NCBI GenBank assembly: GCA_945910425.1
Contig: CAMDYM010000002.1
Coordinates: 1 to 64,000, forward strand
Direction of reading: 5' to 3'
DNA from: an uncultured Candidatus Melainabacteria bacterium
Lineage (GTDB): Bacteria > Cyanobacteriota > Vampirovibrionia > Gastranaerophilales > Gastranaerophilaceae
DNA length: 64,000 bases
Position numbers and translations under genes: made by a program. Below are positions 32,277 to 49,397 of this stretch, piece after piece. Numbering within the stretch: the first letter of the stretch is position 1; each line of letters opens with the position of its first letter. The notes beneath the pieces are model-generated. The model was given only the letters and a program-made list of their open reading frames with translations, was not told the origin of the DNA and ran no database searches.

Positions 32277-32819
32277 TTACAAAACAAAATTAGCACAGCT
32301 TTCATAAATTTCATCTTGTTCTATACCAATATATCTTAAAGTAATTTGCGGGGATGAATGGTTGAAAATTTTTTGTAAAATTACCACATCCTTAAACATT
32401 TGATAATGATGATAACCAAATGTTTTTCTTAATGTATGAGTTCCGACAAGTTCCTCTAATCCCAACGCCTCACACGCCTTACGGATAATTCTATACGCTG
32501 CTGTCCGCTCTAACCTGTTATTAAACCTTGATTTGAACAACGGTTCTTTCACATCCCGATTTGCTGTAAATTTATTAATCATCGGTTTTAATTTTGAATT
32601 TATCGGAAATTTTTTAAACTTATTAGTTTTTTTCTCAATAATTTGTATAAAATCTTTATTTTTCACATCACCAACATTCAGACACAAGATATCCGAAATT
32701 CTCAATCCGCAATTTATTCCAAAAGTAAATAACAATAAATCACGTTCCTTTTGTTTTGCCAAAAAATTTTCAATATTTTTAATATCTTTTAATTTTCTGA
32801 TAGGTTCAACTGTTGCCAT
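32277..32819 (-). CDS. Short tyrosine recombinase/integrase
   Basis: A protein of 180 residues. It holds the catalytic set: Arg in CGLRISDIL, HTLRKTFG (His and second Arg), FNHSSPQITLRY (His and the Tyr nucleophile at RYIGI). The N-terminal core-binding domain is short, about 15 residues plus a helix. The start at 32819 has AAGGAGAAA upstream. It lies immediately upstream of the glycan operon on the same strand and may be the mover that brought that operon in or a stand-alone integrase. No direct repeat was identified around it. Confidence 0.85.
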   Translation of the reverse strand: MATVEPIRKLKDIKNIENFLAKQKERDLLLFTFGINCGLRISDILCLNVGDVKNKDFIQIIEKKTNKFKKFPINSKLKPMINKFTANRDVKEPLFKSRFNNRLERTAAYRIIRKACEALGLEELVGTHTLRKTFGYHHYQMFKDVVILQKIFNHSSPQITLRYIGIEQDEIYESCANFVL

Positions 32820-33000
32820 ATTTTTCTCCTTTTTACTACACAAACCTATTAAACAATCGGAAAAAAATAATCTTCACCCGTCATTCGTTATATATTAACA
32901 AAATAAACGACAAACATTCAAAAGACGTAGAAATTTTAAGATTCTGAAACAAGTTCAAAAGACAAAATTTCCCAAATGCAACAGACAAAGTTCGTCGGAA

Positions 33001-33882: not shown

Positions 33883-33991
33883 ATACCCCCCCTTTTTATA
33901 GCATCTTACCACAAAAATGAGAGAATTAGATAAGAAAAAGGTAGAATCAGGTCTTAAATTTTTTACAAAAATATAAATAATAATATTATGG

Positions 33992-34087
33992 ATGAAATTA
34001 GACTTGAAATGTATAGAAGCAGGTAAAAAAGCAGGAATTGAATTACCAAAACAAGAAGAAACAGTTTATACAAACTTTATAAGGTAA
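33992..34087 (+). other. Thirty-one-codon open frame or gene remnant before flavodoxin
   Basis: ATG at 33992 opens a 31-residue frame containing CIEAGKKAGIELPKQEE and ending VYTNFIR. Composition is coding-like, but there is no clear ribosome site. It reads like a C-terminal end of a longer lost protein. It sits in the shared control region between the AraC gene and flavodoxin. Family not recognised. Confidence 0.3.
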
Positions 34088-34143
34088 TAAAATTTTGTGC
34101 AGGCTGCACATTCGCAAATAATACAAATTCACAAGGAGGTTTC

Positions 34144-34620
34144 ATGGACAAAAAAATATTAATTGCATACTTTTCCTGGAGCGGTAATACAAAATATATA
34201 GCTGAAAAAATTCACTCTCAAGTTGGCGGCGATATGTTCAGGATTGAAACAGCTGTTCCATATCCATCAGATTATAATGAAGCCGCTTATGGAGTTGCTA
34301 AAAAACAACATGAAGAAGGTACAAAACCTGAACTTAAAGATAACGGTAATATTTCGGGCTACGATGTTATTTTTGTCGGAACTCCTGCTTGGTGGTACGA
34401 AATGGCTCCTGCTGTTAAAACTTTTTTAAGCGAAAACAATTTTGAAGGTAAAACCATTATACCTTTTATTACCCACGGCGGAGGAGGTAAATATACAATT
34501 GCCGAAGATATGGGCAAAATGACGAACGCAAAAACTTTAGAACCTTTAGTTGTTTATGGCAAAGGTGATTCAAACACAGATACCCAAATAAAAGAATGGC
34601 TAAATAAACTTGGATTTTAG
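34144..34620 (+). CDS. Flavodoxin
   Basis: A 158-residue FMN-binding electron carrier. AYFSWSGNTKYIAEKI (about 8-23) is the phosphate-binding loop. FVGTPAWWYEMAPAVKTFL supplies the aromatic ring-stacking residues and THGGGGKYTIAEDM follows. It resembles the flavodoxin_4-type proteins common in gut anaerobes. It has a strong AAGGAGG site and sits 19 bases upstream of the exported DXS-like gene, implying one operon under the divergent AraC regulator. Confidence 0.92.
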   Translation: MDKKILIAYFSWSGNTKYIAEKIHSQVGGDMFRIETAVPYPSDYNEAAYGVAKKQHEEGTKPELKDNGNISGYDVIFVGTPAWWYEMAPAVKTFLSENNFEGKTIIPFITHGGGGKYTIAEDMGKMTNAKTLEPLVVYGKGDSNTDTQIKEWLNKLGF

Positions 34621-34638
34621 AAAGAAGGAAAATAATAC

Positions 34639-36477
34639 ATGAAAAAGAAATTACTAATATCTATGCTAATTGCAACAAACGTTAGCTGTAACTGCGTATT
34701 TGCAAATCAAGAATATTTGAATAAGGATTATCAAGTAAAAGTCTTAGGTAATATAAATTCACCTCAAGATGTAAAAAAACTTACTAAATCTCAAAGGAAT
34801 TTACTTGCAGACGATTTAAGATTCGGAATTATTAATCGAGCAAACACAATCGGTGGACACCTTGGTCCTGATTTAGGCTTTGTAGAACCGACTATTGCTC
34901 TTCATTATGTTTTTGATTCTCCAAAAGATAAAATTATATTTGATGTTTCTCATCAGATTTATCCGCATAAAATGTTAACTGGAAGAAAAGACGGATTTTT
35001 AAACCCTATTAATACAGAAATTTCAGGTTACTCAAACCAAGACGAAAGCGAACACGATTATTTTAAAGTCGGACATACTTCAACCTCGTTAAGCCTTTCA
35101 ACAGGTATGGCAAAAGCCAGAGATATAAAAGGTGAAAAATATAACATTGTTACCGTAATAGGTGATGGTTCACTTTCAGGCGGAGAAGCTTTAGAGGGTT
35201 TAAGTAATGCAGCAATTCTTAACAGTAATTTTATTATCGTTGTAAATGATAACGAAATGGCAATTGCTGAAAATCATGGCGGACTTTATACCGCATTAAA
35301 AAACTTGCGCGACACAAACGGAAAATCCGAAAACAATCTGTTTAAATCCTTTGGATTTGATTACTATTATCTTGAAAACGGAAACAATACAGATGAATTA
35401 ATTAAATTATTTTCAAAAGTAAAAGACACAACAAAGCCAACAGTTGTACATATCCATACCCAAAAAGGTAAAGGCTATACTCCTGCAGAAGAAAACAAAG
35501 AAACATATCACTATCAAATGCCGGGATTTCTTAATCCTGCTACAAAGCAATTCTCAGAAAATTACAACACAATTACATCAAAATTCCTTTTGAATAAATA
35601 TAAAAAAGACAAATCTCTAATCGTTGTAAGTCCTGCAACACCTTCTGCAACAGGTTTAACTCCTGAAGTTAGAGCAAAACTTGGCAAAAACTATGTTGAT
35701 GTCGGTATAGCTGAACAACAAGCAGTCGGATTTATTTCAGGGGCAGCCGCAAACGGAGCTACTCCTGTATTAGAAGTTATGAGTTCATTTATACAAAGAA
35801 CTTATGACCAATTATCACAGGATTTAGCTTTAAACAACAATCCTGCAACAATTCTCGTTTTTGGCGGAAATATAAGCGGTGCGGATATGACTCACCTTGG
35901 AACTTTTGATATTTCATTGATTAGTAATATTCCAAATATTGTATATCTTGCACCTGCTACAAAAGAAGAATACTTAGGAATGTTAAATTGGGCAACAACC
36001 CAAAAAGAACATCCCGTAGCAATAAGAGTTCCTTCAGGAAATGTAATTTCTACAGGAAAAACTGATAAAACCGATTATTCTAAATTGAATAAATTTAAAG
36101 TAGAAGAAAAAGGGTCAGAAATCGCAATTATTGCAGCCGGCAACTTTTACCAACTGGGAGAAAATTTAAAAGCAGAAATTTCAAAACAATTAGGAATTGA
36201 TGCAACATTAATTAACCCTGTTTATCTTACGGGAGTTGACAAAGAACTTTTAAACAATCTAAAAAAAGACCATAAAATTGTAATCACACTTGAAAGCGGA
36301 ATCTTAGACGGAGGATTTGGTGAAAAAATCACAAGATATTATGGAAATTCTAATATGAAAGTTTTAAACTACGGTGCGCAAAAAGAATTTACGGATAGAG
36401 TTCCGACCGAAGAACTTTTCAAAAAATATCACTTAACACCTGAGCTTATTATTAAAGATATACAAAATTTAAAATAA
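34639..36477 (+). CDS. Exported DXS-like thiamine-diphosphate enzyme
   Basis: A protein of 612 residues resembling 1-deoxy-D-xylulose-5-phosphate synthase along its whole length: GGHLG (72-76), GDGSLSGG with NDN (175-205) for thiamine diphosphate, and AEQQAV (358-363, catalytic Glu). It begins with a signal peptide (about 1-22, ending VFA). Two positions that bind the substrate phosphate in true DXS appear changed: the DRAGLVG segment reads FGGNISG (408-414) and the YPRG segment reads VPSG (464-467). A different substrate or a moonlighting role is likely (inference). It ends before a clear terminator. Confidence 0.8.
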   Translation: MKKKLLISMLIATNVSCNCVFANQEYLNKDYQVKVLGNINSPQDVKKLTKSQRNLLADDLRFGIINRANTIGGHLGPDLGFVEPTIALHYVFDSPKDKIIFDVSHQIYPHKMLTGRKDGFLNPINTEISGYSNQDESEHDYFKVGHTSTSLSLSTGMAKARDIKGEKYNIVTVIGDGSLSGGEALEGLSNAAILNSNFIIVVNDNEMAIAENHGGLYTALKNLRDTNGKSENNLFKSFGFDYYYLENGNNTDELIKLFSKVKDTTKPTVVHIHTQKGKGYTPAEENKETYHYQMPGFLNPATKQFSENYNTITSKFLLNKYKKDKSLIVVSPATPSATGLTPEVRAKLGKNYVDVGIAEQQAVGFISGAAANGATPVLEVMSSFIQRTYDQLSQDLALNNNPATILVFGGNISGADMTHLGTFDISLISNIPNIVYLAPATKEEYLGMLNWATTQKEHPVAIRVPSGNVISTGKTDKTDYSKLNKFKVEEKGSEIAIIAAGNFYQLGENLKAEISKQLGIDATLINPVYLTGVDKELLNNLKKDHKIVITLESGILDGGFGEKITRYYGNSNMKVLNYGAQKEFTDRVPTEELFKKYHLTPELIIKDIQNLK

Positions 36478-36480
36478 CAT

Positions 36481-36514
36481 AAAAACCCCTCTCTGATTTA
36501 TACAGGGGTTTTTT
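36481..36514 (+). terminator. Rho-independent terminator after the DXS-like gene
   Basis: AAAACCCCT and AGGGGTTTT form a nine-base-pair stem with a loop of about 13 bases, followed by TT. It starts a few bases after the stop codon. It would end the flavodoxin/DXS-like transcript. Confidence 0.85.
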
Positions 36515-36515
36515 A

Positions 36516-36632
36516 TTATTTACTGTTAAGCTTCATAAAAAATGGTAAAGAAATCAATACAAATGCAAGCAATGCAACAATGGCAAAAGTATCAATATAC
36601 GCAAACAAAGTTGACTGAGCAACCATTTGTTT
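36516..36632 (-). pseudogene. C-terminal remnant of an MFS drug transporter (EmrB/QacA type)
   Basis: About 39 codons on the minus strand are open, ending in TAA. They read YKQMVAQSTLFAYIDTF and continue with a hydrophobic membrane segment and a KLNSK tail. This matches the final helix and tail of DHA2-type multidrug transporters. An in-frame stop lies just upstream, so the rest of the gene is gone. It shows deletion at this edge of the island. The family call is by pattern. Confidence 0.55.
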
Positions 36633-36730
36633 ATAATATTACTTTCTACCCTAAAGTAGTACCATTATGATGTATATTGGCATACTCCGGTAAAAACTTT
36701 AAAATCCATTAAAATATGTTACAAAAATCC

Positions 36731-37114
36731 TTACCATTTTATAGTTCTTATAACACTGTTAACAGCATCTACCGTTTGCTGTTTGTTTCTGTAATCAAGG
36801 TATTCTTCGTGTTCTCTGTTTCTTGCTTCAACCTTCGCATTCCAAGCGTTATTTTTATTTAATTCAGCATCACGAACCTGTTGATAACAAGATTTTAAAT
36901 CATCCCCTTTATAAGAAGAACATTGGTCAATCGAATTTTCAAATTGAACCCGTCTTTCATACCAATAATTATTATCAGTATTCCATTTTGAAGATTTTGC
37001 GTTCATATAAGAAACAGGGCAAAATTCACTCCATTGTGGAGCAAGAACAACTTCAGCATTAGCCACTACAAAAAACATGTTCATTAAAACAAAACTAATT
37101 AAAACTTTTTTCAT
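36731..37114 (-). CDS. Exported hypothetical protein
   Basis: A protein of 127 residues with a signal peptide (about 1-20, ANA). Mature part is hydrophilic with three or four Cys (FCPVSY, DQCSSYKGDDLKSCYQ) that could form disulfides and a charged helix. The ATG has AGAGG upstream. No family recognised. Confidence 0.6.
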   Translation of the reverse strand: MKKVLISFVLMNMFFVVANAEVVLAPQWSEFCPVSYMNAKSSKWNTDNNYWYERRVQFENSIDQCSSYKGDDLKSCYQQVRDAELNKNNAWNAKVEARNREHEEYLDYRNKQQTVDAVNSVIRTIKW

Positions 37115-37191
37115 ATCTACCTCTTAAAAATTTTCCACACTAAACTTTAAAATATATTATACAATAAATATGCAGAGAAAGAAGTATTTTA

Positions 37192-37213
37192 TAGATAGCG
37201 GGAGTCGAACCCC
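37192..37213 (-). other. tRNA/tmRNA 3'-end-like sequence, possible attachment-site core
   Basis: Read on the minus strand, GGGGTTCGACTCCCGCTATC resembles the T-arm and acceptor end of a tRNA or tmRNA. The pairing is imperfect and no full cloverleaf can be drawn from the flanking sequence, so it is not a functional gene. Integrating elements often leave such 3'-end copies at one junction. It lies at the edge of the accessory island. Confidence 0.35.
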
Positions 37214-37297
37214 AAAATCCCTTATAATTTTAAAAATATAAATAAAAATATCGAACTCTGAAAACCCACGCTATTAAACAGTTTTCAAGGCTTAATA

Positions 37298-37404
37298 TAA
37301 AAAATTTGGTGCGAACCGTCCAAAGAGCAACAGGCTCGGTTCAAAAACATTATAAATGAAATTTTGCTATTTGTAAATTCCCTGCTAAATTAAAAATCAG
37401 GGAA
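37298..37404. repeat. Structured non-coding element, copy A (see 61262-61336)
   Basis: GGTGCGAACCG opens a 30-base stem-loop (37313-37342; stem GAACCG/CGGTTC) whose loop contains AGCAACAGGCT. It is followed by a second hairpin TTCCCTG/CAGGGAA (37378-37404). The first 35 bases match copy B at 28 positions. One stem base pair differs as C-G here and A-T there, a compensatory change. A further CCCTG/CAGGG pair lies at 37470-37492. Function unknown. Confidence 0.65.
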
Positions 37405-37509
37405 AACCGATAGATTTTTGTTAAGTTTTATAATTGAAACTATTGTTACATAAGAATTTTAAAACATTTTCCCTGCAAAGTAAAGAACAGGGTAATTTAT
37501 TAATATATT

Positions 37510-37926
37510 CTACATTTTTTTAAGTGTTTTTATTATGCCACAAATGTCTTCTCTTGAGAATTTCTTTTGCAATTTTTCAATATATTTTATGCATTTAACC
37601 AAGTAATCCTCCTCAATTGATTGTATATAAGAAATATTCCCAATTAAAGACTCTTTCGTTTCATTATTTATTTTAGAAAATTCTCCAGTTTTATATAAAA
37701 AATAAAGAATTGCTCGGACCTTATTTTTTTTGTTTTTTGATACTTTCATATTACCATCATTTATGGTGATACCTGTAACTTTTTTATGGGAAGTATTTTT
37801 TATTAACTTTGTTTTTTCAGTATTTAATTCAATATTAAAATAATTTGTTCTATTATTTTCAATTATTTTTGGTAAATAAAAAGTGATAAATTTATTGTAT
37901 ATTATACCAGTTATATTAAATAGTGT
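37510..37926 (-). pseudogene. C-terminal remnant of a retron/Abi-type reverse transcriptase
   Basis: The frame is open from 37926 to the stop at 37510 (138 codons) but has no ATG, GTG or TTG before residue 60. It contains IELNTEKTKLI, then KKVTGITIN and KVRAILYFLYK, which match the late palm and thumb of retron-type reverse transcriptases (N-x-x-K-T and V-T-G-x-x-x-N). The catalytic YxDD core is absent. Its 5' end overlaps the stop of the large upstream gene. It is probably a truncated leftover. A 79-residue product from ATG 37749 is possible but has no ribosome site. Confidence 0.65.
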
Positions 37927-40900
37927 TTATATAACTATTTAAATATTTTAAATTTATAAATTTTATGTTTTTAGTATCATTTAATAAAATTTCAAAGAAT
38001 TCGCTATCTGTCACAACATAAAGTGAATGAATTTTGGGAATATCTTTTGGAATTGGCCATTTAAGAATTTCAAAAATCTTATTTAAATTATTCTCTAAAT
38101 AAATTTCTCTGTTTTTAACTTTTTCAAGAGAATTTTTTTGTGATTTTTTATCCGGTTTTAAAACGTTATTGAGTAAACGTTTTGCATCTTTCAAACAATA
38201 AGGTTTAAGATAATATTTACATTCAATATTAAGAAGACAATTTTTTTTAGGAATATAACACAAAACATCATAATCACCAAGATTTTCGGGATGATTACCC
38301 TTTTTGTCTCTATTGTGCAAATATACATTTTTTTCACAGTATTGACTCCAATTTTTCAACAGAAAATTATATGTATTATTATTTAATTCCGTTTCTCTTT
38401 TTTCTTTTTGCTTTTGAATAATATTTTTAGTTTTACAAGCACATAGACCAAACGGAAAACGTGGACGAGCAAGACTTCTTGCCCAAACATCTTGTGCTTG
38501 ATACGTCGATTGAGGTCCCCATAAAATTGTATTTTTGTCTATTTTTATTAAGGGTTTAATTATATAGCGACTAAATCTTTTATTATATTCATATACAGGG
38601 ATTTCATTACACTCTTTGGTTGATAGAAAATCTTCTTCGTAAATTTTAGAAACTTCATCAGCTTTTAATGTGAGAAAATCTATTAGTTTTTTAATAGCTT
38701 CTTCATTACAATCATCTTTATTGGGTAATTCATTTAACAGCATTTGAATAATTTCCGGTATTGATGCTGTATAATATGGCTGTTCATCGATATTTTTATA
38801 AGCTGCCCATGAACTTAAACAGGATAACAAGTCAATTAATAATTGAAATGAAAATCCAAAATCATATATCATTGCTTCATTAAGCTTTGGATAATAATCT
38901 TTTTCATCATTAAATTTCATTTCTTTAGGTAAATTATTATAAAGATCATTTTCAGATTCATACTCTAAATATTTGTTTTGTTTTTGTAACATTTTCTTAG
39001 AAACATCTGCATAAATTGTATAATCATCTTTTATTATTAAACTTAATTCTGTTAGATTATTATGAATAATATCTCCATATTGATATGTATGTAAAATCCA
39101 ATGTGCTTCAGCAATTAATAATTGTAATTTATCTTTTGTTAAAATTTTAGTACCAATGTGTGGCAAATATATAAATTTTTCAATTAAATACCTATATATT
39201 ATATTGTTATGGTGACATTCATTTTTAATTTCAATTAACCTTTGGGTTCGATTATAGTCAACATCATGTTCTGTGGAAATATCTAGCAGCCGGTGTTTAT
39301 GTTCAGTTTCATTATAATATGCATCCATCTGTTGTATTAGATATGAAATTCCTTGTGTAGAATCTATTTGACTTAATTCATTGTCCAATACAGGCATTAA
39401 ACCTTCTCTGACAATTTGAAGTATATTTTTAGCCTCATTATTAGTATATTTGCCTGGTTTATATTCGGATGATTTAATTAATTTTGCCATTTTATTTTGA
39501 ACCAAAATAAAATCTTTATCTTCCGGCAATATAACCTGCCAATGTTCAGGAAAAGATGTAGGTTTATTTAAAAGATTAAATGCAAAACGCGTCTTATCAT
39601 TTTTATGTTTTATAATCTTATTTTTAATTTTTAAAACATTTTCATCTGGAACATAAAAATCAAGTTCTTCTAATAGTTCCAAAGCCAAATTCGTTTCAAT
39701 TTTACTGTCATTAACTCTATTCATTGCATCAAAATATAAATCTTCATTATATAAAATCCTTATCCCATGTGTGTTTTTGTCCGGATAACCGGTAGTCATT
39801 GTCCATATTAGATTATCATTAATTTTATTTTGAAGAAATTCAAAAACTTTATTTTCTTTTATAATACTGTAAGGAATTACTTCTATTAATAAATTTTTAT
39901 ATTCTGCAAAAAATTTGTGTTTAGATATTATATCTAGGTAATGGTAAAAAATATCCTCAACCATATCTGTAATATTATCCAATATTATATACTGTTTTTT
40001 ATTATAAATACCAAATATAGGTTTTATACATATATCAGAGTTATTAATTTTTTGGTATTTGATAAAGCCTAAAAGAGTCTTTGCTTCTAGCCTTAGTTTA
40101 TTAGAATTTTTATCAGGCAAAATATGCCATTTATCTATTTCACCAATACTATATAATAGGGGAAAACTTTCATATTTATGTTTCAATGACTCAAATCTTG
40201 TGGTTGATCCATAAGTCGCATCCTCTAACATTAAATATGTAAAGTCATTAGCACCTGTTAAAATTGTTCCGTTATTATTTTCACGATAAAAAGCTAATTT
40301 ATCAGATATTGAATACATCGGATTATAATTTAACTGATTATTTTTTAGATAATGCAGTTGTTTTCCAAGTTCAAAAAAATCGTTCAGTTCGTTTATCATT
40401 TGTATAAAATCTACTAACGGAAAATAAAATATGTTTTTATGTACAGGAAAATTAACTATTGTATTTTCAAAAGGAAATAACATGTTAACTATAATTAATT
40501 GAACATCAAAATCCTGTGGTAAATGCAAAGAGGAAATAATTTCAGATTTTAATAAATTATATAATTCAAATAAGTGTGTTTCTTCATCCTTTATGGTTGG
40601 ATTAAAAAAATAAAACAATATTACTTCATTATTTATAATAATAGAACTGCAACTAATATTTTTTAATTTTTCGTTGTTAATATATTCATTTATATTATCT
40701 ATAAATTGGATATTATGCGTTTTTCGTTCTCGGATATAAATTTTTATTGCAGATTTAATCAACTCATATTCATTAAGTGAAAACTTCTTTGTAATTATTA
40801 GATTATCCAACTGATTGTTCCAATATTTACATAGTACATAACTGAAACGTCTTGGTATTATTGGATAATAATTCCCCTTATAGCAAATAAAACTATGATT

Positions 40901-41614
40901 TAACAATTCTCCTTCTAAAAAATCTGTTTCAAAATTTAAAAGCTTTTTGTAGACTTGTTCTTTATCGCCTACTTTAATAGAATATTTATTTAAAAATTCG
41001 TTATCCTGTTTATTTATTTTTTTCATCAAATAATAAAAACAAACTTGACTTTCTTTCCAAAAAACTCGTGAAGGAAGCGAAATTTGTCCAGGTTCTACTT
41101 CATTATTCTTTTGAGTTTTAATATCCTCTATAGTCTGATTTTGAAGAGATAAAAATATTTCCAAATCTTTACCTGGATTTTCTAAATTATTATTTTGATA
41201 AAAATTATTTAATGAACCATGTACTAATTTAAAACATTGTAAATAGTCATAAATGTTACAAATCTCTGAACCATAAAATATTTTATAATAAAAATTATTA
41301 TGGAAAAATTTTATTTCACCCCAATCTTTTTCTGGACAATAATCTTCTAAAGTTGGGAATTCCGGTAAATTACTTAATAAAGATTGTGTAAATTTTTTAA
41401 ATTCAAAATAATTAAAAATTTTATCATTGTTTTCAAACTCAAATTCTTCTATTGAAATTAGACTAATAATAATAAAAATCTGCTTTAAAATTGCAGAATT
41501 GTTATTATTCCACAGGGTAATTGCAAATAAAGATTTTATAATATCATAAAAACTATATTCTTTTAATAGTTGAACAATCATATCAAATTTTGGTTTTAAA
41601 AATTTTTGTTCCAT
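37916..41614 (-). CDS. Large uncharacterised protein with C-terminal PD-(D/E)XK-like nuclease motif
   Basis: A protein of 1232 residues, Asn/Ile/Lys-rich and cytoplasmic (no signal or membrane segment). Most of the length matches no family I recognise. Near the C terminus GDYDVL (about 1113-1118) and NIECKYY (ECK at about 1131-1133), preceded by a helix with a conserved-looking Glu, form the D-x(n)-E-x-K pattern of restriction-type nucleases. WGPQSTYQAQDVWARSLARPR just before may be part of the same module. Setting next to RhuM, a methyltransferase and a reverse-transcriptase remnant suggests a defence gene. That is inference. Confidence 0.6.
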   Translation of the reverse strand: MEQKFLKPKFDMIVQLLKEYSFYDIIKSLFAITLWNNNNSAILKQIFIIISLISIEEFEFENNDKIFNYFEFKKFTQSLLSNLPEFPTLEDYCPEKDWGEIKFFHNNFYYKIFYGSEICNIYDYLQCFKLVHGSLNNFYQNNNLENPGKDLEIFLSLQNQTIEDIKTQKNNEVEPGQISLPSRVFWKESQVCFYYLMKKINKQDNEFLNKYSIKVGDKEQVYKKLLNFETDFLEGELLNHSFICYKGNYYPIIPRRFSYVLCKYWNNQLDNLIITKKFSLNEYELIKSAIKIYIRERKTHNIQFIDNINEYINNEKLKNISCSSIIINNEVILFYFFNPTIKDEETHLFELYNLLKSEIISSLHLPQDFDVQLIIVNMLFPFENTIVNFPVHKNIFYFPLVDFIQMINELNDFFELGKQLHYLKNNQLNYNPMYSISDKLAFYRENNNGTILTGANDFTYLMLEDATYGSTTRFESLKHKYESFPLLYSIGEIDKWHILPDKNSNKLRLEAKTLLGFIKYQKINNSDICIKPIFGIYNKKQYIILDNITDMVEDIFYHYLDIISKHKFFAEYKNLLIEVIPYSIIKENKVFEFLQNKINDNLIWTMTTGYPDKNTHGIRILYNEDLYFDAMNRVNDSKIETNLALELLEELDFYVPDENVLKIKNKIIKHKNDKTRFAFNLLNKPTSFPEHWQVILPEDKDFILVQNKMAKLIKSSEYKPGKYTNNEAKNILQIVREGLMPVLDNELSQIDSTQGISYLIQQMDAYYNETEHKHRLLDISTEHDVDYNRTQRLIEIKNECHHNNIIYRYLIEKFIYLPHIGTKILTKDKLQLLIAEAHWILHTYQYGDIIHNNLTELSLIIKDDYTIYADVSKKMLQKQNKYLEYESENDLYNNLPKEMKFNDEKDYYPKLNEAMIYDFGFSFQLLIDLLSCLSSWAAYKNIDEQPYYTASIPEIIQMLLNELPNKDDCNEEAIKKLIDFLTLKADEVSKIYEEDFLSTKECNEIPVYEYNKRFSRYIIKPLIKIDKNTILWGPQSTYQAQDVWARSLARPRFPFGLCACKTKNIIQKQKEKRETELNNNTYNFLLKNWSQYCEKNVYLHNRDKKGNHPENLGDYDVLCYIPKKNCLLNIECKYYLKPYCLKDAKRLLNNVLKPDKKSQKNSLEKVKNREIYLENNLNKIFEILKWPIPKDIPKIHSLYVVTDSEFFEILLNDTKNIKFINLKYLNSYINTI

Positions 41615-41645
41615 GCTTTAAATAATTTTTTGAGTTTCCTGTTAT

Positions 41646-42662
41646 CTAATTAATTTTAGTTCTATTTTTCTTTTCCAACTGTTTTTGCGTTTGTTTAACA
41701 GATGCCAAAAAGTGTTTTTCAACTTCTGAAAGTTCATCTTTAATAGTTTCTTTGTATTTTGCATATTCTGCAAGTGCTTTATTTTCAGCTTCCAGTTTTG
41801 AGATTTTACCGGGATTATCAAGAAGTTCACTTCCTGTCATTTTGATAAAATCATCAAGTTTTAAAATCCAATCTTTCATTGTCATTGGGTTTTGTCTGAT
41901 TGCTTGTAATTCTGCGAACTCAAGATATGCAGATGTAATTCGGTTCAAAATATTCAATTCTTTTTCATCCAAATAATTCTTTGCAACCGTAACTTCATCT
42001 TTTTTCGGATGATTTCCCTTAAAAACAGTCAAACCCATATTATCTTTTGTGCTATCTGCTCTCAAATATACGATTTCAGTGGCGGTATGCCCATGCGCTG
42101 CAAAATGCATTTTGTTTTGAACTACTTTGAAAAATAATTTGGTTTCCTCCGCGTTAGGATTGTAATCCGTACTTGTTGCATAAATATCCAAAATCTGGCG
42201 ATAAAAGACTTTTTCAGAAGATCGAATATCTCTGATACGTTCTAAAAGTTCTTTCCAATAACCGCCACCACCAGCTTGTTTTAGCAAATCATCATTTAAG
42301 GCAAACCCTTTTTTCATGTACTCTTTTAAAACTTGAGTAGCCCAAATTCTGAATTGTGTACCACGTAACGATTTTACTCTATACCCGACAGAAATAATTA
42401 CATCCAAGTTGTAATGAGAAACATTCCTTGAAACCTTTCTGTTGCCTTCTTGTTGAACTGTCAAGTAATCCTTGACAGTTGAATTTTCTGAAAGCTCTCC
42501 TTCTTCAAAAATATTTTTAATATGCGAACTTACGTTTTGTTTAGTCGTTTGAAATAACTCAGCCATTTGATTTTGCGTAAGCCATACTGTTTCATTTTCT
42601 AATCTTACGTCAATTTTTGTCTGACCATCTTGCGTTTGATAAATAATAATTTCATTTTCCAT
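41646..42662 (-). CDS. rhuM: RhuM-family protein
   Basis: A protein of 338 residues. The opening IIIYQTQDGQTKIDVRLENE and ETVWLTQNQMAELF, the FQTTKQNVSSHI stretch, and the KSLRGTQFRIWATQVLKEYM motif are diagnostic of RhuM (Virulence_RhuM). These DNA-binding-like proteins travel on genomic islands and near restriction systems. The C-terminal end is a charged coiled coil (about 280-335). Molecular function is not established. It sits 31 bp upstream of the large nuclease-like gene. Confidence 0.92.
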   Translation of the reverse strand: MENEIIIYQTQDGQTKIDVRLENETVWLTQNQMAELFQTTKQNVSSHIKNIFEEGELSENSTVKDYLTVQQEGNRKVSRNVSHYNLDVIISVGYRVKSLRGTQFRIWATQVLKEYMKKGFALNDDLLKQAGGGGYWKELLERIRDIRSSEKVFYRQILDIYATSTDYNPNAEETKLFFKVVQNKMHFAAHGHTATEIVYLRADSTKDNMGLTVFKGNHPKKDEVTVAKNYLDEKELNILNRITSAYLEFAELQAIRQNPMTMKDWILKLDDFIKMTGSELLDNPGKISKLEAENKALAEYAKYKETIKDELSEVEKHFLASVKQTQKQLEKKNRTKIN

Positions 42663-42723
42663 ATCATTAAGTATAGCATATAATTTGTTTAAAAACTAAT
42701 TATAACAGAAGTAATTAGTGTAA

Positions 42724-42754
42724 AAGCCGCCACAGTTTAAAACAGTGACGGCTT
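42724..42754 (-). terminator. Hairpin terminator after the DUF5681 gene
   Basis: On the minus strand AAGCCGTCAC pairs with GTGGCGGCTT (one G-T wobble), followed by TTTT. It would end the methyltransferase/DUF5681 transcript before rhuM. Confidence 0.75.
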
Positions 42755-42764
42755 CTCGTTAGAT

Positions 42765-43256
42765 TTATGGATTGTCTTTTGTTAATTCAAACAACCGTTG
42801 ATGCAAATCTTGCAACAACAGCCTTCGTTCTTCCGGGGTAAATTCTTCCTCTTTCGGATTTTGTTTTTCAATCAGCATTTTTACAGTTTCCATAATGCTG
42901 GATTTTAGTAGGTTTTCCATTATAAATTTTCGAGATATACCATCTTTTTTTATTGCATCTTGGATAATTGACTTAACTAAAAGTTCAAATATGTGTAATT
43001 TTTCTTTACTGCCAGTTGGATTATCTATTGTCACCATTTGGCATAATTCATTACATAGTGCTTGGTATATTGTTTCTGGGATAGGCTTTTTCTTACGCCC
43101 TCTTGGATTTCCTGATTGTCCTTTTTTAAATTGGCTACTTACCGGAGGTTTTTTATATCCTACTTTGTAGGGTTCGTTAGCCATTTCTGCTTTCTTTTTT
43201 TCTTTTATTGCCTTGTAGTGTTCAATATATTTTAAGGTTTTATCATCTAACGTCAT
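42765..43256 (-). CDS. DUF5681-domain protein
   Basis: A protein of 163 residues. VGYKKPPVSSQFKKGQSGNP followed by RGRKKKP is the DUF5681 signature (residues about 28-55), a basic segment likely to contact nucleic acid. The rest is helical and charged. It overlaps the methyltransferase gene's end by 14 bases. DUF5681 genes are commonly next to ParB-domain methyltransferases in prophages and mobile islands. Role unknown. Confidence 0.85.
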   Translation of the reverse strand: MTLDDKTLKYIEHYKAIKEKKKAEMANEPYKVGYKKPPVSSQFKKGQSGNPRGRKKKPIPETIYQALCNELCQMVTIDNPTGSKEKLHIFELLVKSIIQDAIKKDGISRKFIMENLLKSSIMETVKMLIEKQNPKEEEFTPEERRLLLQDLHQRLFELTKDNP

Positions 43257-44613
43257 TTTCTAACTCCTTATAATTTTTAACTAGTTTTGCAGTTTTTCCT
43301 GTTTCTTGTCTCCAGCGATATATAATTACATCACAATAGCGAGGACTTATTTCAATAAGCCTAGCTCTGCGCTTACAACGTTCTGCTGCTATTAGCGTTG
43401 AGCCAGAACCACCAAAACAGTCAAGAACAACATCATTTTTAGAAGAGGCATCAAGCAAAATATCATGCAACATTGCAACAGGCTTTACTGTGGGGTGAAG
43501 CCTTAATAAATCTAGGGAGCCTGGATTTGTTACACGAATTCCGGAATAATCCCAAACGTTTGTTCTATATCTTCCGTTTTTCCCAAGTTGAATGTGATTT
43601 TGGTGTTTTGCTTTCCCATTTTTAAATATTGGTACCATTTCATGTTGAGATCGATAAAAAGCACCCATTCCTCCAACTCCCTTATTCCAAACTGCAATAT
43701 TTTTTAGTTCAGAATAAATCCTTTTCCCCTCATTTAAAAGTGTATTAAGCCCATTAAAATCCATAAATAGATAATGTAATGAACCGTCAACGGAGAATTT
43801 TATCAAATTTTGCATGAATTTTGAAATGAATTCTGCAAATTCAGGTTCAGTCATTTCTCCTGATGCATTTTCAAATTCATCATGCTTAATTTTTCCAAGT
43901 CCACAAACATGACCATTTATTGGACAGTTATAAGGTGGATCTGTTATTATTATTTGAGCTTTTTCACCTTGCATCACAACCTCAAATGAACCAGTGGTTA
44001 AAGAATTTCCACAATAAACAAAATGGTCTCCTAATCTCCATAGGTCTCCTTGATTAACTAATGAAGGTATATTGGTATCCAACCAACTTTCATCTTCTTT
44101 ATCTGAATTGTGAACTTTATTATCGTCAGAATTCTTGTTCAAAAAGATTTTTTCATAATCTACTGTTTCAAAAGCCAGCTCTTCAAATGAATAATTAAAT
44201 TTCATTAACTTTTCGATTTCAACTTTGAGATTTTCATAGTTCCACTCTCCGTCTTCAGCAATCCTATTATCCAAAATCCGAATTGCATCTGCTTCTTCAT
44301 TTGTCAAATTTTTTAAAATAATTGCTGGAATTTGAGTGAATTTTAGCTCTTTCGCAGCTAATAAGCGTAATTCTCCTGCTATTACTATATGGTTTTCATC
44401 TAGTAAAATTGGATTTACGTACCCAACTTTGTTAATTGCATTTTTCAACTTTTGTAATTGTTTTTTTGAATGCTTGCGTAAATTTTTAAGATTGCAGCTA
44501 ATTATATCAATATTCACCATTTGTAGGTTACTAGTAGAATTACTCTCTATTATATCATCCGTAAAATGACGAAATACACTGGCTATTTCTGCCGAATTAA
44601 CATTTTCTTTCAT
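43243..44613 (-). CDS. ParB-domain/N4-N6 DNA methyltransferase
   Basis: A protein of 456 residues. Residues about 33-130 are a ParB/sulfiredoxin-like domain (NLRKHSKKQLQKLKNAI, then VIAGELRLLAAKEL). The catalytic domain has TDPPYNC (224-230, motif IV), HPTVKP (373-378) and FGGSG (400-404, motif I), the beta-class order. Both halves look complete. It probably modifies adenine or cytosine amino groups in a short target. No cognate nuclease is obvious, so it may protect a mobile element. AAAGGAG precedes the ATG. Confidence 0.9.
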   Translation of the reverse strand: MKENVNSAEIASVFRHFTDDIIESNSTSNLQMVNIDIISCNLKNLRKHSKKQLQKLKNAINKVGYVNPILLDENHIVIAGELRLLAAKELKFTQIPAIILKNLTNEEADAIRILDNRIAEDGEWNYENLKVEIEKLMKFNYSFEELAFETVDYEKIFLNKNSDDNKVHNSDKEDESWLDTNIPSLVNQGDLWRLGDHFVYCGNSLTTGSFEVVMQGEKAQIIITDPPYNCPINGHVCGLGKIKHDEFENASGEMTEPEFAEFISKFMQNLIKFSVDGSLHYLFMDFNGLNTLLNEGKRIYSELKNIAVWNKGVGGMGAFYRSQHEMVPIFKNGKAKHQNHIQLGKNGRYRTNVWDYSGIRVTNPGSLDLLRLHPTVKPVAMLHDILLDASSKNDVVLDCFGGSGSTLIAAERCKRRARLIEISPRYCDVIIYRWRQETGKTAKLVKNYKELENDVR

Positions 44614-44669
44614 AATTTTTTCTCCTTTATTAGTTTGATAATCAAAAATTTTGCAACTAAAAATTGCAC

Positions 44670-45017
44670 TTACACTAGGAGATACGGAATTATGTCTGTG
44701 TCTGATATTATTCGAATTTTAACTAAGTTTTTAAGATTTTCCTCTGTTACTGTAGGAATTTGTAGGGACAAAAAACTCCAAATTTTTAATTCTGTTTCGA
44801 CATTCAAAACCGGTCGAATGAAAAATACAAAATTCGTAATTGAGCGAATGAGATCCATAAAGAATGCATACATGTAGCGTAAAGTCTGCTCGCATTTGTG
44901 TTTTGTTGGAGTATTTATTTTTGAACAGATGTTCTGAATTACAGAGTCCTCTGTAACTACTCCGCTTGAGTACCTGATTGAGTTATTATTTATGTTTTTA
45001 TCAATTTTAATACTCAT
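44670..45017 (-). CDS. Small hypothetical protein, doubtful
   Basis: A protein of 115 residues, helical, with a hydrophobic middle (YMYAFFMDLIRSITNFVFF). A possible ribosome site (AGGAGA) is 15 bases from ATG, rather far. Another frame of 103 codons overlaps on the plus strand. It lies just before the methyltransferase gene on the same strand and could be its leader. No family recognised. Confidence 0.35.
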   Translation of the reverse strand: MSIKIDKNINNNSIRYSSGVVTEDSVIQNICSKINTPTKHKCEQTLRYMYAFFMDLIRSITNFVFFIRPVLNVETELKIWSFLSLQIPTVTEENLKNLVKIRIISDTDIIPYLLV

Positions 45018-45240
45018 CTGCCTAAAACGTTTCTCCTTAAAGGATTTCCAATCTGTTGTTCATTATACCTCCAATTATATACACGTTTTCCAAGATTTGA
45101 CAAGTTGAAAACTCAAATCAAATAATTATTTAAGGCATATTTTAATCTATAACTAGGTTTGAGATGTAAAATTATCTTTATAATTTTAAATTTCACATTG
45201 AAATTCAAGTGAATTTTCTAATAAAAAGCATGCCGGTATT
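45018..45240. other. Intergenic stretch, no feature seen
   Basis: About 220 AT-rich bases with no coding frame or hairpin of note. It presumably carries the promoter of the minus-strand methyltransferase group. Confidence 0.3.
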
Positions 45241-45305
45241 TTAATTTTCCAGATAGTCATATTTTTCGACCCAGTCGTCTCCGACAACAAATATATCAAA
45301 ATAAA
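45241..45305 (-). pseudogene. Remnant of a TagD-like cytidylyltransferase
   Basis: Twenty or so codons on the minus strand, ending in TAA, read FDIFVVGDDWVEKYDYLEN. This is the conserved GDDW segment of glycerol-3-phosphate cytidylyltransferases, followed by a premature stop. An intact relative lies at 27194-27622 but differs in sequence here, so this is a leftover of another glycan locus rather than a copy of it. Confidence 0.55.
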
Positions 45306-45314
45306 GATTTTTTA

Positions 45315-45665
45315 TTTTATTCTAAACAACCTGATATTTCTATCAAAATCGATACAGCATTGTCAACAATAGAAAAAGTTAACAAAGCTCTGAAAGGAGC
45401 ATTACCTGATAACTATTTTTCGCGTATAGATTTAGATAATAGCAAGTTATCTACACTTTTAGATGGAATTAATAAAATAGACACGCAAAAAGATAAAGAT
45501 AATGATAATGATATAATTGGAAGAGTTTATGAATATTTCTTAGGAAAATTCGCACTTGCCGAAGGTAAAGGTAAAGTAGAGTTCTATACCCCTAAATGCA
45601 TTGTAAATTTAATTGCAGAAATGATTGAACCTTATTCAGGAAGTGTAAATAAAGTGCAAGTGTGA
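45315..45665 (+). pseudogene. Truncated type I restriction methyltransferase subunit (HsdM)
   Basis: The frame is open from about 45309. It covers the typical HsdM N-terminal end and linker: IEKVNKALKGALPDNY, then GRVYEYFLGKFA and VEFYTPKCIVNLIAEMIEP, the segment just before the SAM-binding PCCGSGG motif. It then ends in a foreign tail (NKVQV, TGA 45663). The catalytic half is missing, so it cannot methylate. The break coincides with an AGTGCAAGT motif that recurs downstream. Confidence 0.8.
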
Positions 45666-45860
45666 GATGAGTGTACAATCGCTAAAGTTAAATATAAAGC
45701 CCTTTATGCCGATTTTAATAGAATGAGATGCACTTGCACTAATTGGACTTTATCTGCACTTTTTTGAGAAATACTTGCACTAAAATTATATAAATTTCAA
45801 AATCAAACTCTGAAAGTTAGCAATATATTTACGCTTTAGTCATGTATATTTAGTGCAAGT
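45651..45860. repeat. Cluster of AGTGCAAGT motifs in both orientations
   Basis: Four copies of AGTGCAAGT or its inverse lie at 45653-45661, 45732-45740, 45773-45781 and 45852-45860. The last two form a longer inverted pair (ACTTGCACTAAA and TTTAGTGCAAGT) spaced about 65 bases. A related TGCAAGTGT occurs inverted at 49043-49051, just beyond the helicase gene. They could be operator/iteron sites or ends of an insertion. This stretch to 45953 has no coding frame. Confidence 0.55.
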
Positions 45861-45953
45861 AAAAAAGTATTCCCTAATTTGAGATATGCAGAATTATCTC
45901 TGAGATTGAGATGAAAACACTTGACTTCTGTTGAAACAAGAGTAATTAATGTC

Positions 45954-48900
45954 TTATTTTCTGTTTTTATATGAACTTAATTGTATTTTTTTGGGAATAT
46001 TGTCTGTACTGAAACCCGGAGGAGCCACTACTATGCTATAACCTTTATCATAGTTAATTCGTTTTGTTATAAACCCTTCTTTTTTCAAACGTCTGTTTAT
46101 TAAATGTGCAATAGTTGAGTTTGATTCATCTTCTACCAATTTTTTATGCCTATTAACACCAAGCATTTCTGCAATTTCGAAAATTTCTATCCAACGATTA
46201 TTTTCTAATATAATATTTTTTATTTTCTCAACATAGTATTCTATAGATTTATCTTCAGTGTTGTCTATTGAAATTGATTCTTTTTGATAATTCGGAGTAT
46301 TAATATTTTCAGTTAACTCTATCTTTTGATTAAAAATTTTTAAATTTTTATAAAATTCAACGACAGTGTTATCTACCATAACTTTTGCCGGATTAAAATT
46401 GCGTAAATATAAACCATTTAATGTTTTAATTCTGCTTAATGCAACATATGCTTGTCCTTTTTCAAATATTCTTGAACAATCAACGACAAGTTTATCTAAT
46501 GACATTCCCTGAGATTTGTGAATAGTTATGCCGTATGCTAGTCTCAATGGAAATTGTCTACGAAGAGCTATTAATTTTTCATTGTTATAAAATTCAAAAT
46601 CATGTCTTGTAATTTTTGCACTTTGTCCATTGTCAAAAAATACTAAAATATAGTCGCTATTAATTTCTCTTACTTCACCACAGGAGCCATTTATCAAACC
46701 TTTTTCAAAATCAATGTTTATTAAAAGCATCACTCTAACACCAATTTTTAAAGATATGCTTTTTTCGGCACTACAAACTACATCAATTCTTTTTAATATA
46801 TTTTCCTCTCTTAAGTTTGTAGGATTTTCTACCAACTTTTCACCTTTATAAACTCCGTCGATTGCATATAATTTATATTCTTCTGAGTTAATCTTACTAA
46901 ACTTCATATTATTGTAATTATCTGCTTCCTGATTTGTTGCAAAAATATGTAATGTATTTTGTGTATAAATATTTTCTTTACACTCCTTTGTTTTTAACAG
47001 TTTTATATCTGCATCTGTTAAAGAATTTGTACGCATATTTGAAAGAGCTGTTATCAGGTTTTCTTCATTTTGTCTATAATTTTTTGTTAATAATACAGTA
47101 TATAAATCTAAATCATTCCATAAATTTGACTCAAAACAATATTTTTGATTTACATCCTCTTTTTTCTCCACCGGTGGCAATTGGAAAAAGTCGCCAATAA
47201 ATATAATCTGGATTCCGCCAAATGGTTTTTCACAATTTCTTACCTTTTTTAATACAGCATCAACGTATTCAAAAGTTTTAATATCCAACATTGATATTTC
47301 ATCAATAGCCAAAATCTTGCATTTTTGAATTTGATTTTTTATAGATGATCGTTTTAAAATCTTGTCAACAGTCTGCTCTATTGATGTGTTACAAATACCA
47401 ATCCCCGCCCAAGAATGTAAAGTTTGTCCTTTTACATTTACTGCAGCAATTCCGGTTGTACTTGTAATCACCAATTTGGGTATTCTTTCTTTTAGCTTTG
47501 ATAAAATATAACTTTTACCGGTTCCAGCATGTCCTGTAATAAATACATTTTTCTTTTGTTTAATTAAATATAGGACTCTTAATATATTTTCATCATCATC
47601 CGTTTCAATAATATTATTTGGTATAATATTTTCTGCAATAGAATCTATTTTATTTTCATATTTTGGATTAATTTTTAAAATAGGCTTGCCAAAACTAACT
47701 TTTGTAGTAACCAACATTTCATTTTTTATTAATTCATCAATTTCAGAAGTAATATAAGAAAGAGTTAATTGCTTAAATAAGCCATAATATTTTGAATTTA
47801 TGGAAGCATTATTATGGTCATTCTCTTTTAATCCGGTACTACCTTTTAATATTTTTGCAATACCACCACGACCATATTTTCCGCTAAATTCTCTTATACA
47901 TGCTAAAATAGCCTTTTTTATGTCTATATTCTCACTAACATTACTACTTATAATTTCTTTAGATTGCATTACTTTAAAATCTGTACCGCATAATTGATTT
48001 ATTAAATCTATGTAAATTAAATTATTATTCTCAAATTCCTTTGTTAGAAATTTATCAATAAAATGTTGAGTAAGATAATTATCTTTTGAGTTTGATAGCA
48101 GAAAATCTTTAATTGTTTGTAAATAATTGTATAACAAGGAAAAAGTATTCTGATTCCCTTGATTATATTCTCTTTTGCACTTACTTTTTACACGTTTTAT
48201 AATTCTACTGATAATTTGTCTTACGCGTTCTCTTGATATTTCAAAGCTATCTCCAATATTTTCTAACGTTAATATTTCATTATTAATTAGTCCGTATCTT
48301 AATTTGAAAATTTCATTATTTCTATCTTTATAAAAATTATTATATTCATTATTTAAAATTATTAATAAATACTTTTTTAGATTAGTTTTGCTATCAATGT
48401 CAGCTTTTACAATATTTGAATCTGAATAACATGATAATAACTTTTCCTCATCAATTTCTATATCAGTATATTCTTTTAAGATATTAATAATTTCTTTTAT
48501 TGTAGCTTTACCTATATTTTTACCCATCTTTATTTTTTCTAAATCACAATTTTTTAATTTTTCAATAGTATCAATTCCAAATCTTAATAGGCAATTTAAG
48601 GTTTTTCTTGAAATATTTATACTTAAAAGTGAATTTTCGTCATATTTTTCTATTTGGTCTGAGTTATATAGTACGTATTCTAGTTCTTTATTGTCCTTTG
48701 TTAATATTGTGAATTTTATAGGTTCTTCTTTTTGCTTGATAATTATATCTGCTTTAGACGATATCCACTCTCTTGATTTATAATTTTTTAAGAATTTATA
48801 TGCTTCAAGAATATAACAATTTCTTTTCCCATATGTACCACCGGTATTTATATTGGTGTGTGTTTCTATACCAGTTCCAGCAATATTTTCCATTTGACTT

Positions 48901-48971
48901 ATTTTTTCTTCATAAGACAAATTATCATTTTTATTAATTTCTAGTATTTTTAAAGCAATTTCTTTATTCAC
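45954..48971 (-). CDS. PIF1-type helicase fused to transcription-factor-like domains
   Basis: A protein of 1005 residues. The helicase core has Walker A GHAGTGKS (480-487), DEIS (557-560), GDFFQLPPV and the C-terminal GITIHKSQGMSLD with YVALSRIKTL, all PIF1/RecD2-like. In front lie an ArdC-N-like stretch (about 35-115), an HhH domain like the RNA-polymerase alpha CTD (about 116-168), a sigma-region-4-like HTH (about 218-265, ISRERVRQII) and an RQC-like winged helix (about 352-425). A further winged helix ends the protein. Start is GTG. DNA unwinding tied to sequence or RNA polymerase recognition is inferred. Confidence 0.75.
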   Translation of the reverse strand: MNKEIALKILEINKNDNLSYEEKISQMENIAGTGIETHTNINTGGTYGKRNCYILEAYKFLKNYKSREWISSKADIIIKQKEEPIKFTILTKDNKELEYVLYNSDQIEKYDENSLLSINISRKTLNCLLRFGIDTIEKLKNCDLEKIKMGKNIGKATIKEIINILKEYTDIEIDEEKLLSCYSDSNIVKADIDSKTNLKKYLLIILNNEYNNFYKDRNNEIFKLRYGLINNEILTLENIGDSFEISRERVRQIISRIIKRVKSKCKREYNQGNQNTFSLLYNYLQTIKDFLLSNSKDNYLTQHFIDKFLTKEFENNNLIYIDLINQLCGTDFKVMQSKEIISSNVSENIDIKKAILACIREFSGKYGRGGIAKILKGSTGLKENDHNNASINSKYYGLFKQLTLSYITSEIDELIKNEMLVTTKVSFGKPILKINPKYENKIDSIAENIIPNNIIETDDDENILRVLYLIKQKKNVFITGHAGTGKSYILSKLKERIPKLVITSTTGIAAVNVKGQTLHSWAGIGICNTSIEQTVDKILKRSSIKNQIQKCKILAIDEISMLDIKTFEYVDAVLKKVRNCEKPFGGIQIIFIGDFFQLPPVEKKEDVNQKYCFESNLWNDLDLYTVLLTKNYRQNEENLITALSNMRTNSLTDADIKLLKTKECKENIYTQNTLHIFATNQEADNYNNMKFSKINSEEYKLYAIDGVYKGEKLVENPTNLREENILKRIDVVCSAEKSISLKIGVRVMLLINIDFEKGLINGSCGEVREINSDYILVFFDNGQSAKITRHDFEFYNNEKLIALRRQFPLRLAYGITIHKSQGMSLDKLVVDCSRIFEKGQAYVALSRIKTLNGLYLRNFNPAKVMVDNTVVEFYKNLKIFNQKIELTENINTPNYQKESISIDNTEDKSIEYYVEKIKNIILENNRWIEIFEIAEMLGVNRHKKLVEDESNSTIAHLINRRLKKEGFITKRINYDKGYSIVVAPPGFSTDNIPKKIQLSSYKNRK

Positions 48972-49122
48972 TCAAGCACACTGCTATATTTCTGCATTGT
49001 AAGTTAATATTATAATAAATTATCATTTTCCGCAATATAAGTACACTTGCATTGTGCAAAAACAGAGTTAAAATGTGTGTACCCCAACATTTACCCATTT
49101 ATTTAATTTAAAAGGAGTTTTT

Positions 49123-49233
49123 ATGCGTAAAGAACTTAGAAAACATATTGAACTACTAGAACAAAAAATGTCAAAAAGTCCGAATAATATAAAAATGGCG
49201 GAAGTCATTTCTTGTACCGCCGAGAAAGAATGA
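49123..49233 (+). CDS. Small 36-residue protein paired with an XRE regulator
   Basis: A 36-residue charged peptide beginning MRKELRKHIELLEQKM. It has an ideal ribosome site (AAAAGGAG seven bases before ATG) and its TGA overlaps the following ATG as ATGA. It is too short for family assignment. The arrangement with a small HTH protein suggests an autoregulated two-gene unit next to the divergent helicase gene. Confidence 0.5.
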   Translation: MRKELRKHIELLEQKMSKSPNNIKMAEVISCTAEKE

Positions 49234-49397
49234 TACGATTCAAAATGCTGCAGAAAAATATGCCACAAAAAATGCTTGCCAAAAGACTGAACCTGACTGA
49301 AAGTTATATATCAAAACTAATCACAGGTGAACGTTATAATCAAGATTTTGAAAGATATATTATTCATATTTTAGATGTAAATTATTGTTGTTTATAA
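49230..49397 (+). CDS. Small XRE-type helix-turn-helix protein
   Basis: A protein of 55 residues. MPQKMLAKRLNLTESYISKL is a helix-turn-helix of the Cro/CI type, followed by ITGERYNQDFE. The ATG at 49230 overlaps the upstream stop (ATGA), which decides the start over an ATG at 49212. It may repress the divergent helicase gene or its own pair. About the size of a minimal HTH domain, so it may act as a dimer. Confidence 0.7.
   Translation: MIRFKMLQKNMPQKMLAKRLNLTESYISKLITGERYNQDFERYIIHILDVNYCCL

Follow-up and report, generated by a model that had tools for sequence, protein, structure and literature searches.

The window (i.e., the whole stretch of 64,000 nucleotides that was analyzed) belongs to a Gastranaerophilales genome (gut Melainabacteria) and carries on its minus strand a helicase gene in which five Pfam domains and two further predicted domains are joined. 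The features assigned to this gene are as follows.

45954..48971, minus strand: helicase gene, 1005 aa, GTG start (domain profiles; intact homologue L025, 79% identical over residues 1 to 1005)
48633..48971, minus strand: ArdC-N-like domain, predicted ssDNA binding, residues 1 to 113 (fold model; motif Y99-x3-N103-x2-Q106)
48471..48656, minus strand: RNA polymerase alpha-CTD-like HhH domain, residues 106 to 167 (PF03118)
48186..48326, minus strand: sigma-70 region 4-like HTH (sigma4), residues 216 to 262 (PF04545)
48213..48236, minus strand: −35-recognition helix of sigma4, SRERVRQI, residues 246 to 253 (comparison with the host RpoD)
47625..47939, minus strand: RQC winged helix, residues 345 to 449 (PF09382; fold match)
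46317..47609, minus strand: PIF1 helicase motor and 2B domain, residues 455 to 885 (Walker A GHAGTGKS, LAIDEIS, GDFFQLPP)
45981..46289, minus strand: C-terminal domain (Cdom), residues 895 to 997 (alignments; model pLDDT of 84 to 90 over most of its length)

Homologues support the GTG start: GTG-D-KEIALKILEIN also opens L025, and the equivalent codon of L005 is ATG. Five domains scored above the Pfam gathering cut-offs, namely, PIF1 (PF05970; 140.9 bits; cut-off, 25.9; residues 470 to 639), Pif1_2B (PF21530; 38.0 bits; cut-off, 23.9; residues 726 to 767), RNA_pol_A_CTD (PF03118; 31.0 bits; cut-off, 23.8; residues 106 to 167), Sigma70_r4 (PF04545; 41.0 bits; cut-off, 24.1; residues 216 to 262), and RQC (PF09382; 32.6 bits; cut-off, 23; residues 353 to 439). 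All five were again above cut-off in L025, which comes from an independent genome (alpha-CTD, 32.4 bits), and in L005 (63% identical) sigma4 and RQC were above cut-off while the alpha-CTD was below it. Since the cut-offs were passed, and passed again in an independent genome, the domain set goes beyond resemblance or chance. Searches of NCBIfam, PHROGs, and PDB sequences agreed, with RpoD/RpoA-type matches over residues 67 to 268 in line with Pfam, a Dda-like helicase over residues 457 to 900 (E = 2e-67), and PIF1 structures matched at an E value of 3e-63. The original prediction of a helicase carrying an alpha-CTD HhH, a sigma region 4 HTH, and an RQC winged helix is thus borne out. Its boundaries for these and the leading domain (residues 35 to 115, 116 to 168, 218 to 265, and 352 to 425) were close to those found here; the C-terminal domain had been missed. 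In the Pfam scan of the 1005-aa protein, no match was obtained for the RpoA N-terminal assembly domain, for sigma factor region 2 (the region of core binding and −10 melting), for a RecQ-type DEAD plus Helicase_C motor (the motor is PIF1), or for the ArdC-type C-terminal metalloprotease domain. The dN/dS of the whole gene between the window and L025 is 0.16, i.e., the gene is under purifying selection.

The alpha-CTD-like domain is 34% identical to a bacterial RpoA CTD and keeps the N/C/L and G of the HhH. Among the DNA-contact residues of the Escherichia coli alpha-CTD (R265, N268, G296, K298, and S299), the equivalents of N268 and G296 are kept, the R265 position holds K (window) or R (L025), K298 is replaced by A/I, and S299 is replaced by T. 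The recognition helix of sigma4 is letter-for-letter the same in the window, L025, and a third protein, L029, and it differs from that of the host RpoD (SRERIRQI) by one V/I exchange; these letters include the E. coli sigma70 residues R584, E585, R588, and Q589. It had been proposed that the helicase might be guided to transcription-related DNA. With the −35 helix fully kept and the alpha-CTD contacts kept in part, such guidance is possible.

The two promoter-type domains might be mere passengers, decayed or neutral, on a helicase that still works: L029 lacks the alpha-CTD with its reading frame still open, and the constraint on the two domains between the window and L025 is also low (dN/dS of about 0.5, which at 65 to 70 codons each is weak evidence). 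We nevertheless regard passenger domains as very improbable, given that both domains score above the Pfam cut-offs in two genomes, that the sigma4 recognition helix is identical in three proteins, and that the dN/dS of sigma4 between the window and L005 is 0.24. Between the window and L025, dS is 0.13 to 0.35 in codons 106 to 275 (48147 to 48656) versus 0.5 to 2.3 elsewhere. Because it is so much lower there than in the rest of the gene, these values hint that the alpha-CTD/sigma4 segment may have been exchanged more recently by recombination.

A full-length AlphaFold model (8 sequences; mean pLDDT, 55; poor helicase core) was used for the RQC, N-terminal, and C-terminal domains only. In this model, residues 345 to 449 matched the WRN RQC structure 3aaf (Z = 13.1; rmsd of 2.6 over 102 residues) and RecQ cores (Z of about 12). 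The wing is therefore common to this protein and RecQ/WRN/BLM, whereas the motor here is PIF1 (SF1B) and that of RecQ is SF2. The motor motifs, including Walker A and B, are invariant in 8 members, and by sequence family the motor is PIF1/Dda-like and is predicted to be a 5'-3' SF1B helicase. Of the initial label, "PIF1/RecD2-like," the first half stands and the second does not, RecD2 having ranked far behind the PIF1 structures. The motor and 2B domain are shared with PIF1/Dda helicases (human PIF1 and the Pif1 proteins of Bacteroides and Thermus), from which the window helicase differs by the ArdC-N and RQC domains in front and by the alpha-CTD and sigma4. Accessory domains fused to PIF1 also occur in bacterial PIF1-HRDC and PIF1-TPR proteins, as they do in two relatives from this survey (HRDC in L073 and TPR repeats in L035).

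The leading stretch, described beforehand as ArdC-N-like, was recognized as such by fold, the Pfam profile being silent (no match to ArdC_N, PF08401, in 14 N-domain members). A separate model of this domain (14 sequences; pLDDT, 90.6; pTM, 0.83) was compared with 350,542 PDB chains by Foldseek, and a probability of 1.00 was reached only by three chains of ArdC from plasmid R388 (6i89/6sna; E = 2.5e-3 to 9.8e-3; probability of the next match, 0.06). VIA-align gave Z scores of 8.2 and 8.0 for two ArdC entries and of 2.7 for the next unrelated entry. One member matches Tc-38 in Pfam (E = 0.0034), a family that Iyer et al. unified with ArdC-N (PMC5512222). Residues Y20, H38, W69, Y99, and N103 are invariant in the 14 aligned members and Q106 is nearly so, within YVLYNSDQ; for ArdC itself, the published work draws attention to V121-FNADQ-126, which lies in its N-terminal domain for ssDNA binding (PMC7213743). 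On the basis of the modeled fold, residues 1 to 113 are an ArdC-N-like domain missed by Pfam. The fold and the Y/F-N-x-D-Q motif are common to ArdC, an antirestriction protein, and polyvalent proteins; unlike ArdC, the window protein has no detected metalloprotease domain and carries a helicase in its place. The paper on polyvalent proteins makes no mention of PIF1, RQC, HRDC, or sigma (PMC5512222).

For the C-terminal domain (residues 895 to 997), neither Pfam nor the PDB sequences yielded a notable match, and PDB sequence searches with the N-terminal and C-terminal domains separately returned nothing useful. Its modeled secondary structure (helix-helix-helix-strand-strand) suggests that it is probably a winged helix. 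It recurs at the N terminus of other PIF1 proteins, alone in 209-aa proteins, and at the N terminus of a RecQ, and by this distribution of sequences it is a mobile, shuffled module. The RecQ (L072:5487-8447, minus strand) has Cdom, HRDC, and RQC before its DEAD/Helicase_C motor, which is followed by RecQ_Zn and a phosphoribosyltransferase domain.

The distribution of these helicases is patchy, with the N-terminal domain found in 13 of 288 family genomes (about 5%) and the C-terminal domain in 12 of 288. Of 386 phylum genomes, only 2 (those of the window and L025) have a protein that matches the alpha-CTD and sigma4 together along all 175 positions. Seven architectures lack both (N-PIF1-RQC, N-RQC-PIF1, N-PIF1-C, C-N-PIF1, C-PIF1, HRDC-C-PIF1, and PIF1-TPR), and those bearing sigma4 are N-sigma4-RQC-PIF1 and the N-alphaCTD-sigma4-RQC-PIF1-C of the window and L025. 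In the helicase tree, the window, L025, and L029 group together (95/98) and are joined by L070 (99/98) and then by L071 (100/99). L029, the closest sister of the window and L025, lacks the alpha-CTD and keeps the sigma4 recognition helix. Because the order of the tree matches the series ArdCN-RQC-PIF1, ArdCN-sigma4-RQC-PIF1, and the window architecture, we infer from tree and architecture together that an ArdCN-RQC-PIF1 core gained sigma4 and then the alpha-CTD and Cdom, step by step. The HhH and sigma-like segments are not ordinary parts of a PIF1 subfamily, since one or both are missing from the closest members of the clade.

The original prediction knew of no described system with this architecture, and no description of a PIF1 with an alpha-CTD or sigma4 was found in the PMC papers searched (a set that takes in few subscription journals). 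The architecture is thus unreported in the sources searched, and it belongs within the PIF1 helicases rather than being a separate kind. No full-length relative was found in IMG/VR. An origin as a phage or plasmid gene was rejected, given that the 461 phage and 25 plasmid records matched do so over the helicase only and none covers 80% of the query. The alpha-CTD plus sigma4 fragment matched no plasmid record and one phage record, which is actually a bacterial rpoA operon. Record MT837710 (L099), labeled "Bacteriophage sp.," is a bacterial ribosomal-protein/rpoA operon.

Upstream of the helicase lie the remains of a MuA-type transposon, with the following features.

49043, no strand: junction, the end of the DNA common to the helicase-less locus L139 (shared DNA, 49043 to about 50177)
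49061..49075, plus strand: AACAGAGTTAAAATG, conserved in the promoter region of the repressor gene (identical in the window and L063)
49123..49397, plus strand: Cro/CI-type HTH repressor gene of the transposon (frameshifted; its end marks the transposon left end)

The repressor gene is divergent from the helicase and is intact in L025. In genome G033, the same repressor gene (337 alignment columns at 80% DNA identity) is oriented toward genes for a 684-aa MuA-like transposase (match to 4fcy; E = 7e-8) and a 228-aa TnsC/MuB-like ATPase. Of 334 family genomes, 57 have the repressor; identical copies exist in different genera, and in most copies inspected the transposase comes next. The 4.7-kb contig of L025 (L063) reads repressor, helicase, and then transposase, of which 62 N-terminal residues (87% identity) precede the contig end. 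Helicase and transposase are seen together in this one element copy only. The insertion sites of both elements were found with the helicase absent, that of L063 in L136 (G222; 96.6% identity) and that of the window in L139 (G198; 83% identity). The conserved DNA of L063 follows L139 up to position 1128 and resumes at position 1130, the 3.1-kb helicase segment lying between, and the match of the window to L139 ends at the same point (49043). By these comparisons, the helicase was inserted into the repressor-transposase slot, which in L025 it occupies in the transposase's direction, outside the main cargo region. The window keeps the transposon left end, the frameshifted repressor, and an intact helicase; the transposase is absent and no transposon right end was found in the window. 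From this gene content, the window helicase appears to be the surviving cargo of a decayed element.

Sister elements carry varied cargo after the transposition genes. IetA is present in two (G033:C2:74097-75200, within L101:2-2201, and G004:C4:169889-170965, in L129; E = 7e-132 and 7e-129), the G033 copy with a subtilisin-like neighbor recognized by eye, and others carry a Fic protein (E = 7e-39) or an OLD-family/AriA-like ATPase (E = 6e-9 and 5e-6). Across the element family, inspection by eye adds HNH, UvrD-like, and AbiE-like proteins to Fic and the OLD ATPase; the names Gabija and AbiE are not claimed, the 377-aa UvrD-like and 311-aa AbiEii-like proteins having no PDB match. Two other genes were noted in the repressor-transposase slot (L127:1373-1978, plus strand, 202 aa; L128:1196-1945, minus strand, 250 aa). 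Defense cargo is known in Tn7-like and Mu-like elements (PMC8649781, PMC11656645), with which this family shares a MuA-type transposase, a TnsC/MuB-like ATPase, and variable cargo, and from which it differs in having the helicase in the repressor-transposase slot.

Placed between these two genes and reading in the direction of the transposase, the helicase could also be a helper of the mobile element, serving in resolution of strand-transfer products or in establishment after transfer as ArdC-N proteins of conjugative elements do; ArdC-N is a header domain of the polyvalent proteins of such elements (PMC5512222). We consider this unlikely, since more than 20 sister elements lack the helicase, two of them at identical insertion sites (L136 and L139), the window helicase is intact although its transposase is gone, and the clade relatives are not near this transposase.

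The neighborhoods of the relatives were compared as well. Beyond the window, the same architecture was found in L025 only, and the 86 proteins near 15 clade members have almost nothing in common, the sole repeat being a UvrD-like helicase in two loci. A multi-gene defense operon was therefore ruled out, and with no conserved operon the helicase probably works alone. The UvrD-like gene lies just upstream of an ArdCN-PIF1-RQC helicase in both genomes (L064:6006-8999, plus strand, 998 aa, with about 490 N-terminal residues lacking an assignment; L031:9813-10655, minus strand, cut by the contig end).

Genome maintenance is well-known work of PIF1 helicases, and the added modules could be generic grips (HhH, HTH, wing, and ssDNA holder) for forks, G-quadruplexes, R-loops, or transcription-replication clashes, with carriage by the transposon incidental. 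Most clade relatives, including the nearest, have ordinary chromosomal neighbors and lack any trace of the MuA-type transposon; two kinds lie near UvrD (L064/L031) or PriA (L065), which suits genome maintenance, and RQC and HRDC are maintenance domains that have also been shuffled onto a RecQ in this family. Presence in about 5% of genomes is unlike that of a core repair gene, and the L025 copy is carried in a transposon; a maintenance role is to our minds a serious candidate, if somewhat unlikely.

We prefer, tentatively and as something quite possible though short of probable, to see an accessory PIF1-type helicase with added DNA-binding modules, carried as a cargo gene, whose role is perhaps defensive in favoring the host or element over other invaders. 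That such a helicase is aimed at chosen DNA sites is plausible because it is fused to promoter-finding parts and has a close relative in a transposon whose sister copies carry anti-phage systems. Preferred sites on duplex DNA, whether promoter-like (−35/UP-like, A+T-rich) or of another sort, would be gripped by the sigma4 HTH and alpha-CTD; the displaced single strand would be held by the ArdC-N domain, and the RQC wing would wedge the junction of duplex and single strand. The PIF1 motor could then unwind onward, stripping bound proteins (e.g., RNA polymerase), R-loops, or replication intermediates of invaders. The helicase would act without a conserved partner gene and spread as transposon cargo. 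Besides the chromosomal setting of most relatives, the partly kept alpha-CTD contacts, the absence of the alpha-CTD from L029, the weakly measured selection on the two promoter-type domains, the location in the repressor-transposase slot instead of the main cargo region, and the single element copy argue against this cargo/defense reading. A stricter version, in which the alpha-CTD and sigma4 read promoters as RNA polymerase does and unwinding ejects the polymerase or blocks invader transcription, would mean that one protein, disseminated by a Mu-type transposon, serves as a promoter-directed effector of defense or of transcription clashes; we hold this to be distinctly doubtful.

A defense effector had been among the first suggestions for this gene. 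The transposon context supports it indirectly; among the anti-phage systems in PADLOC, there was no good match, the best being PDC-S68 (44.6 bits) to part of the helicase core. MzaA, a defense-associated sigma-like protein of the MZA system, matches residues 161 to 268 through its sigma4-like C terminus, at 43.9 bits versus a family cut-off of 800, and lacks a helicase. A weak PADLOC match (E = 0.098) covers residues 112 to 262 with PglW of type 2 BREX, a kinase/NERD protein that, unlike the window protein, has no helicase. In PglW, an alpha-CTD-like domain is followed by three wHTH-like modules (PMC12839542), which offers a precedent for an alpha-CTD with winged helices as a DNA-reading unit in defense proteins.

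The usual view is that DNA structure leads a helicase to its substrate; a motor bearing the two DNA-reading parts of the RNA polymerase holoenzyme would be led there by sequence. The natural series of ArdCN-RQC-PIF1, its sigma4-bearing form, and the form with the alpha-CTD provides ready-made constructs for probing each added part. The survey also indicates that PIF1 and RecQ helicases of gut Melainabacteria swap common DNA-binding modules (ArdC-N, RQC, HRDC, and the new wing-like C-terminal domain) and that the cargo slots of MuA-type transposons in Gastranaerophilales, with IetA and other defense-type genes, look like a good source for new defense systems.

Misassembly or misbinning of the window was considered and rejected, its left part matching a second genome from its genus at up to 86 to 88% identity. 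An independent 16.1-kb contig (L076; G252:C27) is 99.2% identical to window positions 32370 to 48512 and, binned in another genus (G252), is probably misbinned itself. Four exact copies of AGTGCAAGT/ACTTGCACT lie close behind the helicase on its downstream side (45653 to 45860), where a truncated hsdM fragment (45360 to 45665) ends; they form two mirrored pairs, each measuring 88 bp end to end. Elsewhere in the window, a 1232-aa protein (37916 to 41614, minus strand), with no convincing match in Pfam, PHROG, or PADLOC, adjoins RhuM, DUF5681, and a ParB-methyltransferase fusion.
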